A DNA stretch of 64,000 nt from Sphingomonas sp. AR_OL41 (GTDB lineage: Bacteria > Pseudomonadota > Alphaproteobacteria > Sphingomonadales > Sphingomonadaceae), in assembly GCF_029911635.1 (NCBI RefSeq), contig NZ_JARYTI010000004.1, positions 124,001-188,000 of the forward strand, given 5' to 3'. Every line of letters starts with the position of its first letter. The stretch's first letter is position 1. Below the pieces are notes generated by a model. The model searched no databases. It was not told the DNA's origin and saw only the letters and a program-made list of their open reading frames with translations. Made by a program: the position numbers and the translations under genes. Shown piece after piece: positions 6,825-51,588 of this stretch.

Positions 6825-8711
6825 TTACCCCAGCCCGCGTCGCAGCACCCGCCCGAGCCGCGCCGAAAAGGCGCGCGGATCGACCGGCAGTTCACCATCG
6901 GCGATCCGCGCCTCGTCGAACAACAGATGCGCGGCGTCCTGGCGAAGCTCGGTCTCGCCCTCGCCGACTTCGCTCAGCCCGGCGATCAAGGCGTGGCGCG
7001 GATTGATCTCGAGCACCGGCTTCGAGGCGATGTCGAGCCGACCGGCGCCGGCCAGCAGCTTCTCCATCTGGCGATCCATGCCATGTTCCGGCGCGACGAG
7101 GCAGGCGGCGCTTTCGGTCAAGCGGTCGGAGGCACGGACGTCGGACACCGCATCCCCCAGCGTCGTCTTGACGAAGGCGATGAAGCCGTTGACCGCGTCG
7201 CTCGCCTCTGCCGTCGGCTGCTCGCCTTCGGGCAACGGGATCAGCCGCAGATCGGCCAGCCCTTGCGTCACCGATTTGAACGGCTTGCCGCCATGGTCGA
7301 TCCCCGCCCCAACCCAGAAGGCGTCGACCTGGTCGGCCAGCAGCAGCACCTCGATGCCGCGCGCGCGGAACCCTTCGAGCTGCGGCGAGGAGGCCAGCCG
7401 GTCGAGATCGTCGCCGGTCGCATAATAGATCGCGGTCTGGTTCTCTTTCAGATCCGCGACATAGTCCTTGAGCGAACGCCACGCGCCGTTCGAGCTCGTG
7501 GTCTTGAAGCGGGCGAGGCCGAGCAGCGTCTCGCGCCGGCCATAATCCTCGTAGAGCCCTTCCTTGAGCACCGCGCCAAAATTGTCCCAAATTTTGGAAT
7601 AACGCTCACCGTCGCTCGCCGACAACTTGTCGAGTTCGCCCAACACCCGGTTGGTCACGCCCTTCTGGATCGCGGCAAGCACCGGGCTGTCCTGGATCAT
7701 CTCGCGCGAGACGTTGAGCGGCAAGTCGTTCGAATCGACCAGTCCGCGCACGAAGCGCAGATAACGCGGCAGGATCTGCGCCTCGTCGGTGATGAACACA
7801 CGCCGGACGTAGAGCTTCATCCGCCCCGCACGATCGGGATCGAACAGGTCGAACGGCCGACTTTCCGGCACGAAGGCGAGCACGGCATAGTCGTGCAGCC
7901 CCTCGGCGCGATAGTGCAGCGTCAGCGCCGGCGCGTCGAACTGGCCGGCGACGGTGCGGTAGAAATCGGCATATTCCTCGCTGCTGATCTCGGCCTTGGG
8001 TCTCGTCCACAGCGCAGCACCGTCGGCAATCTGCTTCGGCTCGGCATCGGGGCTGTCCTTTAGGAAGATCGCCACCGGCACATGGCCGGATTGCGCCTTG
8101 ATCGTCCGCTCGATCGTGCCGCTCTCGGTATAGGCGGTCGCATCTTCCTTGAGGTGCAGCACGACGCGCGTCCCGCGCGCCGGCGCCTCGGCGACATCGG
8201 TCGCGCGGATCGTGTAGGTGCCGAGGCCGTCCGACGACCACAGGGCGGCGGCATCGCTGCCGGCCCGACGCGACGTCACCTCGACCTGGTCGGCGACCAT
8301 GAACGCCGAATAGAAGCCGACGCCGAACTGGCCGATCAGGAAACTCTCGCCACCCTCATTGGCGCCGGCGATGCGGTCCATGAACGCCTTGGTGCCCGAG
8401 CGCGCGATCGTGCCGAGCGCCTCGCCCAGTTCGGCCTCGCTCATGCCGATGCCATTGTCCTCGACCGTCAGCCGGCGCGCCTCGGCGTCGAGCGTCACGG
8501 TAATCCGCGCCGCGCCGTCATCGCCGAACAGCTCGGGCGCGCTGATCGCCTCGTAGCGCAATTTCTCGCACGCATCGGCCGCGTTGGAGACGAGTTCGCG
8601 GAGGAAGACGTCCTTGTCCGAATAGACCGAGTGCACCATCAGGTGCAGCAGCTTGGCAACGTCGGCCTCGAAGGAACGGGTCTCGGGGATGGCTTCGGAC
8701 ATCGTCGTCAT
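6825..8711 (-). CDS. htpG: Molecular chaperone HtpG (Hsp90)
   Basis: A 628-residue bacterial Hsp90. The GHKL ATPase motifs are visible: LRELVSNAADACEK (N-box), DNGIGM, and the lid GQFGVGFYS, followed by the middle domain with SREMIQDSPVL and a dimerisation domain. It refolds and remodels client proteins in the cytosol using ATP. ATG codons at 8711 and 8702 are both possible starts. The upstream region carries a sigma32-like promoter (8748-8776), so heat-shock control is likely. It is a single gene between argS and divergent phaB. Confidence 0.96.
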   Translation of the reverse strand: MTTMSEAIPETRSFEADVAKLLHLMVHSVYSDKDVFLRELVSNAADACEKLRYEAISAPELFGDDGAARITVTLDAEARRLTVEDNGIGMSEAELGEALGTIARSGTKAFMDRIAGANEGGESFLIGQFGVGFYSAFMVADQVEVTSRRAGSDAAALWSSDGLGTYTIRATDVAEAPARGTRVVLHLKEDATAYTESGTIERTIKAQSGHVPVAIFLKDSPDAEPKQIADGAALWTRPKAEISSEEYADFYRTVAGQFDAPALTLHYRAEGLHDYAVLAFVPESRPFDLFDPDRAGRMKLYVRRVFITDEAQILPRYLRFVRGLVDSNDLPLNVSREMIQDSPVLAAIQKGVTNRVLGELDKLSASDGERYSKIWDNFGAVLKEGLYEDYGRRETLLGLARFKTTSSNGAWRSLKDYVADLKENQTAIYYATGDDLDRLASSPQLEGFRARGIEVLLLADQVDAFWVGAGIDHGGKPFKSVTQGLADLRLIPLPEGEQPTAEASDAVNGFIAFVKTTLGDAVSDVRASDRLTESAACLVAPEHGMDRQMEKLLAGAGRLDIASKPVLEINPRHALIAGLSEVGEGETELRQDAAHLLFDEARIADGELPVDPRAFSARLGRVLRRGLG

Positions 8712-48738: not shown

Positions 48739-49668
48739 ATGGAGCGGCTTGACGGCGGCTCGGCGCTGCCCCCGCACCTTGCCGGTGGTATCGTCGCGCT
48801 GGGCAATTTCGATGGATTCCACCTCGGACACCAGGCGGTGGTCGGCCGCGCCATCGCGGCCGCGCGCGCCGCCGGACGACCGGCGATCGTCGCGACCTTC
48901 GATCCGCATCCGATGCGCCTGTTCCGCCCCGACGCCCCGCCCTTCCGTCTCACCACGCTCGACCAGCGCGAACGACTGTTCGGCGCGGCCGGCGCCGACG
49001 CCATGCTGGTGTTCCATTTCGACGCCGCGCTCGCCGCGCTGACCGCCGAGCAATTCGTCGACCAGCGGCTGGTCGCCACGGCGCGCATCGGCGGCGTCGT
49101 CACCGGCGAGGATTTCACCTTCGGCAAGGCCAAGGGCGGCAATGTCGCGCTGCTCGCCGAGCTCGGTCGCCGGCACGGCTTTGGCGTCGAGACCGTTGGC
49201 CCGGTGTCGCTCGACGGCCGCACCGTGTCGTCGAGCCGGATCCGCGACATGCTCGTCGCCGGCCAGCCGCGCGACGCCGCGCGGCTGCTCACCCGCCCCT
49301 GGGCGATCGAGGGTGTGGTGACACACGGCGCCAAGCTCGGCCGCACGATCGGCTACCCGACCGCCAATATCGATCTCGGCAGTTATCTGCGGCCGGCCTA
49401 CGGCATCTACGCTGTGCGGGGTCGGTTGCCCGACGGGCGCGTGCTCGACGGTGCTGCCAATCTCGGCATCCGCCCGAGCTTCGAACCGCCCAAGGAACTG
49501 CTCGAGCCCTATTTCTTCGACTTTTCGGGCGACCTTTATGGCCAGCGCATCGAGGTCGAACTGATCGACTATCTCCGCCCCGAGGCGAAGTTCGACACGC
49601 TCGCCGCGCTGACCGCGCAAATGGAAGCAGATTGCGCGCGGGCGCGGGCGTTGCTCGCTCGCGCCTGA
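48739..49668 (+). CDS. ribF: Bifunctional riboflavin kinase/FAD synthetase
   Basis: A 309-residue enzyme making FMN then FAD. The N-terminal nucleotidyltransferase has IVALGNFDGFHLGHQ and, later, VSSSRIRDML; the C-terminal flavokinase has GRTIGYPTANIDL and GAANLGIRPSFEPPKELLEPY. The ATG at 48739 gives the usual short lead to the first motif. It is flanked by repeat-bearing and gene-poor DNA. Confidence 0.95.
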   Translation: MERLDGGSALPPHLAGGIVALGNFDGFHLGHQAVVGRAIAAARAAGRPAIVATFDPHPMRLFRPDAPPFRLTTLDQRERLFGAAGADAMLVFHFDAALAALTAEQFVDQRLVATARIGGVVTGEDFTFGKAKGGNVALLAELGRRHGFGVETVGPVSLDGRTVSSSRIRDMLVAGQPRDAARLLTRPWAIEGVVTHGAKLGRTIGYPTANIDLGSYLRPAYGIYAVRGRLPDGRVLDGAANLGIRPSFEPPKELLEPYFFDFSGDLYGQRIEVELIDYLRPEAKFDTLAALTAQMEADCARARALLARA

Positions 49669-49700
49669 TCGCGCGCGTCCGATCGACGGACCCCGAACGC

Positions 49701-49732
49701 AAAATGGGGGCCGGCATTGCTGCCGACCCCCT
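49701..49732 (-). terminator. Orphan minus-strand terminator
   Basis: GGGGG.CGGCA (49706-49716) pairs with TGCCG.CCCCC (49721-49731) around TTGC, with one mismatch. On the minus strand it is followed by ATTTT; on the plus strand there is no T-run. No recognised minus-strand gene lies upstream. Confidence 0.6.
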
Positions 49733-50220
49733 GTCGCCGGACTTCGACCCGCTCATCCGTCTTCCGAAGAAGACGAACCGCGCCGTCTGGTTTCGGCGGC
49801 CCGCTCCACCTCGTGCCGCGAACGGCGACGAAGCTTCGCGTTTCGGTCACCGGGGCCGGGCGCGATACCCTTGCGGGCCTCAGCGCCACAGCCTCGGCGG
49901 CCAGCTTGGCGTTCCGGACCGAAGTCCTTTCCGCCTCGCCTTGGCCCTTACCTGTCGAACCGCCTTCCGCCCGGTGATGAGCGATGCGCATCCGGCCCTC
50001 ATGGCCAACGCCCTTCCTCGATCGCGGGGACGTGGAGGGACGTTTCGGTCCGCCGCTCCTGCCGCCGCGACGCCGACGCTTGCGCGTCCGCACATCCCGG
50101 CCATCAGTTACCTGCGGGCCTCCCGAAAAAGCGCGCCGAACCTTGCGATCCTCGTCTCTTCTTCGGCATAAGCTTTTGATCTCTCTTCGGTTTCCCGCTT
50201 CGTCGTCATCCGCTTACAGT
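49733..50220 (-). other. Gene-poor region with stable hairpins; possible non-coding RNA
   Basis: Between the orphan terminator and 50.2 kb no frame looks like a conserved protein. On the minus strand there are two C(UUCG)G tetraloop hairpins: CGTCTTC-TTCG-GAAGACG (49759-49776) and GGAC-TTCG-GTCC (49916-49927). An RNA on the minus strand ending at the terminator is possible. It lacks the RNase P, tmRNA, SRP RNA and 6S signatures I know. Confidence 0.3.
50108..50209 (-). CDS. Possible 33-residue protein
   Basis: ATG at 50209 opens a 33-codon frame on the minus strand, highly charged (MTTKRETEERSKAYAEEETR then IARFGALFREARR). The composition looks more protein-like than anything else in this gap, but there is no strong ribosome-binding site and no recognised family. 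Candidate only. Confidence 0.25.
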   Translation of the reverse strand: MTTKRETEERSKAYAEEETRIARFGALFREARR

Positions 50221-50275
50221 CATGATGGTGTCATCGAATCCGAGTCGCGCCAATACGAAACCACCTCACAGAGCC

Positions 50276-50293
50276 TGTGGATAATGTGGATAT
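50276..50293 (-). promoter_or_regulatory. Tandem DnaA-box-like sites
   Basis: TGTGGATAA (50276-50284) is a perfect consensus DnaA box, directly followed by TGTGGATAT (50285-50293), one mismatch. Two GANTC methylation sites lie 30-40 bp upstream (GAATC 50236-50240, GAGTC 50242-50246), and an AT-richer stretch follows near 50340-50390. Confidence 0.5.
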
Positions 50294-50425
50294 CGTGGAG
50301 CGATTGGTGCGCTGCGGCGCGCGCAGAGACGTGACATGAACGCAACGTTTTTTGAGGTTCATGCAACAATTGCTAAACCTCCCGCGTTCGGCACTTCACT
50401 GAATTAGAGGCAAGGGAGACTATCT

Positions 50426-50728
50426 ATGCGTAAGCTCATCATGGCGCTCAGCGCCGTATCGCTGGTCATTCCGGCAATGGCGATCCCGACCGCAGCCGAG
50501 GCCAAGCGGCACTATTATAATGGCCATACCTACAAGCGCACCAAGGTTTGCCGTCACTCGAGCGGCACGACGGGTCTCGTCGCCGGCGGCGTCGGCGGCG
50601 CGCTGGTCGGCAACTCGGTCTTCGGCCATGGCGCGCTCGGCACGATCGCCGGCGGTGTCGGCGGCGCCTTTGCCGGTCGCGCGATCGATCGCACGATCAC
50701 CGCCAAGAAGCGTTGCTATTATCGCTGA
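50426..50728 (+). CDS. Exported glycine-zipper protein
   Basis: A 100-residue protein with a signal peptide (MRKLIMALSAVSLVIPAMAI, cleavage near AEA-KR at 26) and a glycine-zipper hairpin (TTGLVAGGVGGALVGNSVFG and LGTIAGGVGGAFAGRAI). These doublets form membrane-inserting helices of the 2TM glycine-zipper type found in outer-membrane-associated proteins. Two cysteines (KVCRH, KRCYYR) could form a disulfide. The ATG follows AAGGGAG. Single-gene unit with its own terminator. Confidence 0.75.
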   Translation: MRKLIMALSAVSLVIPAMAIPTAAEAKRHYYNGHTYKRTKVCRHSSGTTGLVAGGVGGALVGNSVFGHGALGTIAGGVGGAFAGRAIDRTITAKKRCYYR

Positions 50729-51250: not shown

Positions 51251-51469
51251 TCAGATCAGGCCGTGGCCGATGATCAGCCTGATCGTGCAGAACACGACCA
51301 GCAGCAGATTGAGGTTGCGGCCCGATTTGTGCGACGAGATTGCACCGATCGCCGCACCGATGAGCGCCATCGGGATCAGCAGCCAGTTGAGCGCGCCCAG
51401 CAACGGGATGAACCCGATCAGCGCGAAGACCAGGACGATGACACCGAGCAGGAGCGAGATGATGTTCAT
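51251..51469 (-). CDS. Small membrane protein
   Basis: A 72-residue, very hydrophobic protein with two membrane helices (IISLLLGVIVLVFALIGFI and LLIPMALIGAAIGAI) and a short basic loop (SSHKSGRN) before a third hydrophobic stretch. No family recognised. In-frame ATG codons at 51490 and 51469 are both possible. Convergent with osmC. Confidence 0.6.
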   Translation of the reverse strand: MNIISLLLGVIVLVFALIGFIPLLGALNWLLIPMALIGAAIGAISSHKSGRNLNLLLVVFCTIRLIIGHGLI

Positions 51470-51588
51470 GCTTAACAAGATGGCGTGCATCGGACGCCCG
51501 CGCAAGGTGTTTTAGCTATATACCACACAACCAAAGCTTCTTTAACCGGATCGGGTGCATGGGTATCCGTCGTATCTGGAGCGTTTGA

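Follow-up and report, generated by a model that had tools for sequence, protein, structure and literature searches.

A conserved structured RNA gene with a putative DnaA- and GcrA/CcrM-controlled promoter beside ribF in Sphingomonas

The ribF gap and the parts of the RNA gene

The window, which is the whole 64-kb stretch of DNA analysed here (64,000 nucleotides), contains a gap of 757 bp at 49669-50425. It is bounded on one side by ribF, a plus-strand gene with Pfam matches to the FAD_syn and Flavokinase domains that ends at 49668, and on the other by a small plus-strand open reading frame that starts at 50426 and whose Gly-zipper matches in Pfam lie below cut-off. The gap had been pointed out in an earlier reading of the bare letters (the sequence-only reading); it is real, and the ribF end and the Gly-zipper start are its bounds. 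A scan for tRNA and tmRNA found none in the 64-kb window, and blastn of the gap against plasmids gave no match.

Read along the minus strand, the gap presents in order a DnaA-box-like repeat, a -35 element, a spacer with GANTC sites, a -10 element, a putative start, about 500 nt rich in hairpins, and a terminator. The promoter region, delimited by sequence motifs shared with relatives, spans 50293-50225, and covariance models, covariation and folding place a structured non-coding RNA of about 518 nt at 49701-50218; we infer that the transcript starts near 50218. Its 5' domain (50167-50218), defined by covariation with the covariance model R2, is closed by a helix, P1, formed by UGUAAGC at 50218-50212 and GCUUAUG at 50173-50167, which encloses a GAAA-tetraloop hairpin, CGGGAAACCG, at 50197-50188; R2 scores 32.4 bits on the window's own copy. 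A hairpin GGAC-UUCG-GUCC follows on the same strand at 49916-49927 and holds the first of the UUCG tetraloops noticed in the sequence-only reading. The conserved 3' domain (49701-49841, minus strand), which the covariance model R1 recognizes with 124 bits, comprises a hairpin at 49833-49809, a helix CGCCG/CGGCG closing a branch with a UUCG hairpin at 49774-49759, and next to it the terminator.

This intrinsic terminator, GGGGGUCGGCAGCAAUGCCGGCCCCC, lies on the minus strand at 49706-49731 with a T-rich tail to 49701, and was identified by consensus scan, conservation and covariation. It has 11 pairs, 9 of them G-C, a loop of 4 and then ATTTT. A minus-strand terminator had been claimed for this place by the sequence-only reading, and it is indeed present at 49731-49706 and kept in relatives. 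A single consensus terminator weighs little, because shuffled sequences hold as many (2 were found in a 3-kb region against a shuffle mean of 2.0), and the weight comes from its conservation.

Two further features of the neighbourhood were observed. An imperfect palindrome, CATGAACGCAACGTTTTTTGAGGTTCATG, at 50336-50367 precedes the Gly-zipper gene and may serve this plus-strand gene as a promoter or regulatory site; by blastn this stretch alone (query 667-700) matches eight other genomes of the genus (G013, G001, G008, G017, G014, G005, G020, G021). A strict pattern for the palindrome matched 0 of 241 loci, and the pattern was over-strict, hence uninformative. A hydrophobic 84-aa open reading frame on the minus strand at 51251-51505 has a weak, below-cut-off match to DUF1269, and a relative of it is found upstream of the RNA gene in locus L085.

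Conservation, base pairing and coding potential

Comparison of the gap by blastn with the host genome and 40 relatives gave two conserved blocks, corresponding to the two ends of the predicted transcript, in four genomes (G019, G004, G012, G011), and at E 0.01 some match, mostly short, in 22 of the 41 genomes. The sequence-only reading had made its proposal depend on sequence conservation in relatives, and both homologues and covariation were found.

Across the family, P1 (of the UGUAAGC/GCUUACA type) closes a short, interrupted stem capped by a GAAA tetraloop and is followed by a hairpin GGU-G-CC-loop-GG-AA-ACC, whose loop alternates between UUCG and GCAA among homologues. The 3' domain is built of a hairpin, a branch closed by a helix of five pairs, and the terminator; the loop of its hairpin alternates between UUCG, CUUG, CUCG and GCAA. 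The middle region is variable, the bodies without terminator measuring 243-769 nt in 95 non-redundant homologues; it varies too much for a whole-molecule consensus fold, and the structure models cover the 5' and 3' domains. A short form of about 270 nt, with the 5' start and the terminator kept, was observed in L153, L160 and L171 (S. trueperi, S. pituitosa and a MAG) and offers a handy minimal version for structural work. As these comparisons show, the conserved unit is composed of promoter, 5' domain, a middle of variable length, 3' domain and terminator.

Base pairing in both domains was evaluated against 500 shuffles. The R1 alignment is made of 51 chosen loci, 19 of which are R1's own seeds. 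Standard pairs fill 96.0% of its 1281 cells (shuffles average 86.4%), two-sided changes occur in 17 of 26 pairs and in 120 cells (shuffle averages 10.6 and 28.2), and sliding the partners by 1-3 columns lowers pairing to 32-50%. Six of the 11 terminator pairs show two-sided changes in this alignment, and one of them takes G-C, A-U and C-G among homologues. R2 gave 62 matches (60 distinct) across 67 loci, 5 loci being without a match; 93.6% of its 1003 cells are paired, compared with 84.4% when shuffled and 25-45% when slid, and 15 of 17 pairs show two-sided changes. For neither model did any of the 500 shuffles reach the observed values on any measure. The alignments were fitted to the R1 and R2 models and are consequently biased towards structure, and, the species being related, significance measured against the shuffles is too high. 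Both biases bear less on the slid controls and on the number of different pair types.

The alignments also indicate the strand, because G-U pairs become A-C on the opposite strand: 1230 of the 1281 R1 cells pair as minus-strand RNA, as against 1118 as the other strand. The folding energy of the 518 nt is -262.4 kcal/mol for the minus strand (z -4.36) and -223.1 kcal/mol for the plus strand (z -2.51). The two minus-strand UUCG loops of the sequence-only reading are there, as CTTCGG at 49924 and 49769. These hexamers in the window alone are not decisive, since the plus strand of the gap also carries two (50161, 50185) and the window many (totals of 28 and 31). In the 95 non-redundant homologues, CTTCGG occurs 170 times against a dinucleotide-shuffle expectation of 16.3, or 10 times as often, and the strand opposite the RNA has 68; by the same comparison with shuffles CGCAAG occurs 156 times (28.9 expected) and GGAAAC 127 times (25.5 expected). 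The most over-represented words in the homologues are largely tetraloops.

A protein-coding reading, in which the minus strand carries a small-protein gene or a frameshifted remnant, finds its basis in a charged 33-codon frame at 50209-50108 and a 174-codon frame, both of which exist on that strand. The shorter frame had been singled out in the sequence-only reading, and it fails in the relatives. Among 13 pairwise alignments (11 distinct genomes, two met twice and one copy cut short), 2 retain the ATG; the frame is disrupted in 12 by indels of 1, 2 or 4 nt, and the remaining one has a 30-nt gap and no ATG. A Pfam scan of the two minus-strand frames of the gap matched no family, and the changes follow base pairs. 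We regard this reading as next to untenable, and what keeps the unit conserved is its base pairing and tetraloop hairpins rather than any reading frame. The least credible explanation of all, which we consider refuted, is chance: GC-rich DNA yields many hairpins, the terminator-like sites are no more frequent than in shuffles, and the gap could be GC-rich intergenic filler with a spurious terminator; against this, sequence, architecture and covariation are kept across dozens of species. Of the proposal of an unannotated RNA or small protein made by the sequence-only reading, then, the RNA half stands on conservation, covariation, strand-specific G-U pairs and folding energy, and the small-protein half falls. 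Comparative sequence evidence indicates that the minus strand of the gap almost certainly holds a conserved structured RNA gene.

Promoter, distribution and genomic setting

The putative promoter was overlooked both by the sequence-only reading and by a sigma-70 consensus promoter scan, which found no site in the region; its -10 is poor by the E. coli consensus. It begins on the minus strand with a tandem DnaA-box-like repeat, ATATCCACA-TTATCCACAG, at 50275-50293, present in the same arrangement in relatives. Within it, the exact consensus DnaA box TTATCCACA at 50284-50276 has its centre some 62 bp upstream of the inferred start. A -35-like TTGGCG follows at 50248-50253 (relatives mostly have TTGGC or TTTGC), and 17 bp after it a -10-like CACCAT at 50225-50230, where TGACA-N-CATC is conserved in the genus. 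Between the two lie two GANTC sites, GACTC at 50246-50242, inside CGACTCG, and GATTC at 50240-50236, all on the minus strand.

In 36 loci matched by R1 (L065-L100), TTATCMACA is exact in 32 and has at most one mismatch in 35. The GANTC site starts 37-39 bases past the start of the box in 27 of the 36 and 47-48 bases past that point in 5. Four loci (L070, L074, L079 and L093) depart from both spacings, and in L074 and L079 a GATTC is retained six bases farther along. The R1 seeds had been obtained through a promoter pattern or blastn, so that this conservation is partly selected by the search patterns. Fourteen of the 36 loci came by routes other than the genus promoter pattern, being 9 genomes that were searched with it without a match and 5 outside that search, and among these the box is exact in 13 and GANTC is at the usual place in 9 and one turn further in 1. 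Over 110 exact matches the gap between box and CGACTC is 25-28 bp in 96, 17 bp in 3, 36-37 bp in 4 and of other lengths in 7, in a count that allowed 14-40 bp, treats related species that are not independent and still includes six chance-like matches; 6 of the 7 matches with odd gaps are without the other features. Steps of 9-10 bp correspond to about one turn of DNA, which suits an activator bound to a single face of the DNA, and by motif comparison the DnaA box keeps a conserved helical phase to the promoter. An activator centred near -62 occupies the classical class I position.

CGACTCG contains GANTC, the CcrM site, and its reverse complement, CGAGTCG, fits YGAKTCG. CGA[AC]TCG occurs in 57 of 73 promoters, a set gathered by patterns that already required GACTC or GAATC, and the CGAATCG variant of L068, L072 and L095 also fits YGAKTCG. 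Two partial matches to the GcrA family over cut-off were found in the host genome on separate contigs, covering positions 1-66 and 90-152 of the model. YGAKTCG is the extended motif reported for methylated promoters activated by GcrA (PMC7987155). In Caulobacter, DnaA, GcrA and CcrM motifs are reported to be often combined in cell-cycle promoters (PMC4287350), and a survey of ncRNA promoters describes some with DnaA and CcrM sites (PMC5988900). In two loci of other genera (L101, L111), inverted DnaA boxes, TTATCCAC...GTGGATAA, were observed ahead of the same CGACTC promoter, and the box layout thus varies between genera. From these motifs, it seems somewhat more probable than the contrary that DnaA and GcrA/CcrM drive the promoter of the RNA gene.

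The genus promoter pattern, GCGACTCG-N7-TGACA-N-CATC with at most one mismatch, is found in 39 of 121 genomes of the genus, at one place each except for one genome with two, and the reversed control gave 1; another promoter pattern matched 37 of the 121. The DnaA repeat is upstream in nearly all of the 30 places displayed. The same terminator, with up to 4 mismatches, follows at about 410-840 bases in 35 of 40 places with the promoter pattern. The five places without it are L039, L058 and L060, which resemble chance matches, L027, and L044; the first four were excluded from the model alignments, and L044 later gave an R1 match at 78.5 bits. R1, a 3'-domain model free of the promoter, scores at least 44 bits in 51 of the 121 genomes (counted by hand) and less in 70. 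At E 0.01 or better it matches 99 of the 121, the weak matches being mostly unverified, and these weak matches may be other terminators; in G054 and G093 a weak R1 match lies about 490 bases past the start of a whole-promoter match. In many genomes of the genus the RNA gene appears to have been lost or to have diverged strongly.

Over the order, R1 at E 0.01 matches 58 of 147 genomes, weakly outside the genus (about 28-43 bits). Among 13 loci with weak matches outside the genus (L101-L113), seven (L102, L103, L106, L108, L109, L111, L113) have a DnaA-type box, with one mismatch in L109, and then CGACTC; L101 has a one-mismatch box, an inverted box and CGACTC; and five (L104, L105, L107, L110, L112) are without a promoter of box plus GANTC. 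Of 196 genomes searched in the order, 18, spread over 5 genera, carry the whole-promoter pattern once each (control zero), and one of these matches (G038) resembles chance. A class-wide search found the promoter in the host genome alone among 289, a set with few sphingomonads (4 of the 289 belong to the host's family). Among named genomes the whole-promoter pattern occurs in 108 stretches. The 80 listed comprise 72 with names of the Sphingomonadales type, with which we count Hephaestia, Stakelama, Sandarakinorhabdus and Polymorphobacter, 4 with unspecific names and 4 from elsewhere; listed carriers include Sphingomonas koreensis, trueperi, mali, pruni and cavernae, Hephaestia, Sphingosinicella, Sandarakinorhabdus, Stakelama and Sphingobium boeckii. 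Environmental type strains with the gene include Sphingomonas trueperi DSM 7225 (short form) and Hephaestia caeni DSM 25527. The six chance-like matches, in which the gap is unusual and the downstream features are missing (L143, L151, L154, L163, L168, L205), come from Polymorphobacter glacialis, a Proteobacteria MAG, Thalassobaculum, a Lachnospiraceae MAG, Insolitispirillum and Terasakiella. The sequence comparisons suggest an RNA gene that is usually single-copy where found, across many Sphingomonas and other Sphingomonadales.

Departures from a single match were also observed. Weak extra R1 matches are common to many genomes; that of the host (G000, contig C1, 3381-3444, 34.5 bits) is probably a similar terminator hairpin elsewhere. 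S. cavernae (L176) and Sphingomonas sp. LaA6.9 carry a tandem duplication of the whole unit, about 440 bp apart, with duplicates at about 6222-7000 in L152 and from 6915-7406 onward in L176. Each tandem copy has its own DnaA-box promoter and terminator, and the two copies differ strongly in sequence.

In Sphingomonas the RNA gene usually stands back to back with Gly-zipper/OsmC genes or beside a DUF985 cupin gene, and beyond the terminator lie ribF (on the opposite strand, as in the window), a TRIC-type gene, OsmC or others. For 9 of 44 loci compared, all from other genera, none of six reference proteins matched, and the neighbours in further species include a UvrD helicase, a thiolase, a low-affinity iron permease, ThrRS, a GGDEF-EAL protein, an APS-kinase/GTPase (CysN/C-like) and a CHRD protein. 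The RNA has its own promoter and intrinsic terminator, conserved together, as in a stand-alone gene, and since the neighbours change between genera it most likely acts in trans. The opposite case, that of a leader whose terminator would be a regulated attenuator and whose RNA would be a cis element of the gene downstream, could draw on six loci (L089, L025, L094, L042, L049, L056) in which a TRIC-type gene of the same orientation lies beyond the terminator. In the window, however, ribF faces the opposite way, other genomes have different genes there, the iron permease and ThrRS among them, and no conserved anti-terminator was seen in the alignments; we hold a leader to be very improbable.

An even smaller probability attaches to the idea that the conserved DnaA boxes, often in tandem, are a DNA-level binding or replication site, such as a titration site or a secondary origin, with the RNA incidental. 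There are one or two boxes only and hemE is not nearby, and compensatory base pairs that favour one strand require an RNA, so that this idea is largely refuted by covariation. The gene hemE is a marker of the alphaproteobacterial origin. It lies at 0.10-0.38 of the chromosome from the RNA gene in 12 single-contig genomes (18 were searched; distances by hand arithmetic, assuming circularity), and an element of the replication origin was rejected on this distance. In Caulobacter, hemE adjoins the replication origin (PMC8959179).

Relation to known RNAs and proposed role

The 4227 models of Rfam 15 gave no match at gathering threshold in the window or in 20 homologous loci, and a relaxed search of 49600-50450 returned only asX1 at 19.8 bits (cut-off 70) and NLPC-P60 at 19 bits (cut-off 53.7). 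RNase P RNA (RF00010) is similarly structured and single-copy, with about 370-400 nt, and was rejected: the host's single match, of 310.3 bits, is elsewhere (G000:C188:34174-34542). We take the OLE, ROOL and GOLLD families to be included in Rfam. A search of excerpts from the open-licence literature, PMC8632094 and PMC11109978 among them, found no sphingomonad RNA of this kind described. Together with the absence of an Rfam match, this makes it likely that the RNA family is new.

Several described RNAs bear a resemblance to it. OLE, ROOL and GOLLD are likewise large and highly structured bacterial RNAs; OLE (about 600 nt) acts in a ribonucleoprotein, and all three are reported to form homo-oligomers (PMC12286853, PMC9723947), but the gap RNA has no Rfam match and belongs to another lineage with another promoter. 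The raiA motif, or ModT, is a widely conserved structured ncRNA reported for Bacillota (PMC11706538), and again the gap RNA is without an Rfam match. CcnA of Caulobacter crescentus is closer in being alphaproteobacterial and linked to cell-cycle control through the CtrA/GcrA circuit; as described, it has 182 nt and lies inside the origin beside hemE, with CtrA boxes (PMC8959179), whereas the gap RNA, set apart by description, has roughly 260-790 nt, lies far from hemE and has a promoter with DnaA box and GANTC. EcpR1 of Sinorhizobium is an alphaproteobacterial ncRNA that touches replication and cell-cycle regulation; compared through Rfam and its description, it is a stress-induced trans-sRNA (PMC4414408), unlike the large, structured gap RNA with its replication-type promoter motifs.

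From its sequence and conservation, we think it likely that the locus encodes a large, stand-alone, structured and trans-acting ncRNA with a promoter controlled by DnaA and GcrA/CcrM. RNA polymerase with sigma-70 would transcribe the minus strand from about 50218 to 49701, with assistance from DnaA bound to a single face of the DNA some 62 bp upstream, and GcrA would read the CcrM-type GANTC site in the promoter spacer, so that expression of the RNA would track replication initiation. The RNA itself might act, at lower confidence, as a folded protein-binding RNA or scaffold, a role suggested by the conservation of helices and tetraloops and by the lack of a long unpaired seed when judged by eye. 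Our judgement is evenly divided on whether it works mainly as a folded protein-binding RNA, and the full proposal, in which DnaA and GcrA at a CcrM-methylated promoter would switch on a large RNA whose folded form, instead of a protein or a small antisense RNA, carries the replication-start signal, is put forward tentatively, as somewhat less probable than not.

The main rival is a long base-pairing sRNA, whose loops would pair with mRNAs, perhaps with Hfq, and whose stable hairpins would be only protective. Base-pairing sRNAs commonly end in an intrinsic terminator with a T tail, which counts in its favour, as do the cell-cycle sRNAs of this sort, CcnA in Caulobacter (PMC8959179) and EcpR1 in Sinorhizobium (PMC4414408). 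Roughly 260-790 nt is long for the class, however, many conserved positions are paired or in tetraloops, and the alignments show by eye no long invariant single-stranded seed; we consider an sRNA unlikely, with a chance well above that of the other rivals. As to protein partners, a CsrA sponge was considered for the frequent GGA-type motifs and dropped, GGAAAC reading as a GAAA tetraloop closed by G-C, and no ProQ-family match was found in the host genome.

Few large structured bacterial RNAs are known, and several have turned out to have unexpected jobs. The RNA gene is small and stands alone, which makes its function directly testable by deletion and reporters. A comparison of 2010 places the Sphingomonadales in a separate cell-cycle cluster (PMC2877005). 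If the preferred reading of a folded RNA under DnaA and GcrA/CcrM control is true, this would presumably, judging by the literature searched, be the first large RNA of the ornate type wired directly into a bacterial cell-cycle circuit, and it would offer a way to study how replication is tied to other cellular processes in sphingomonads.
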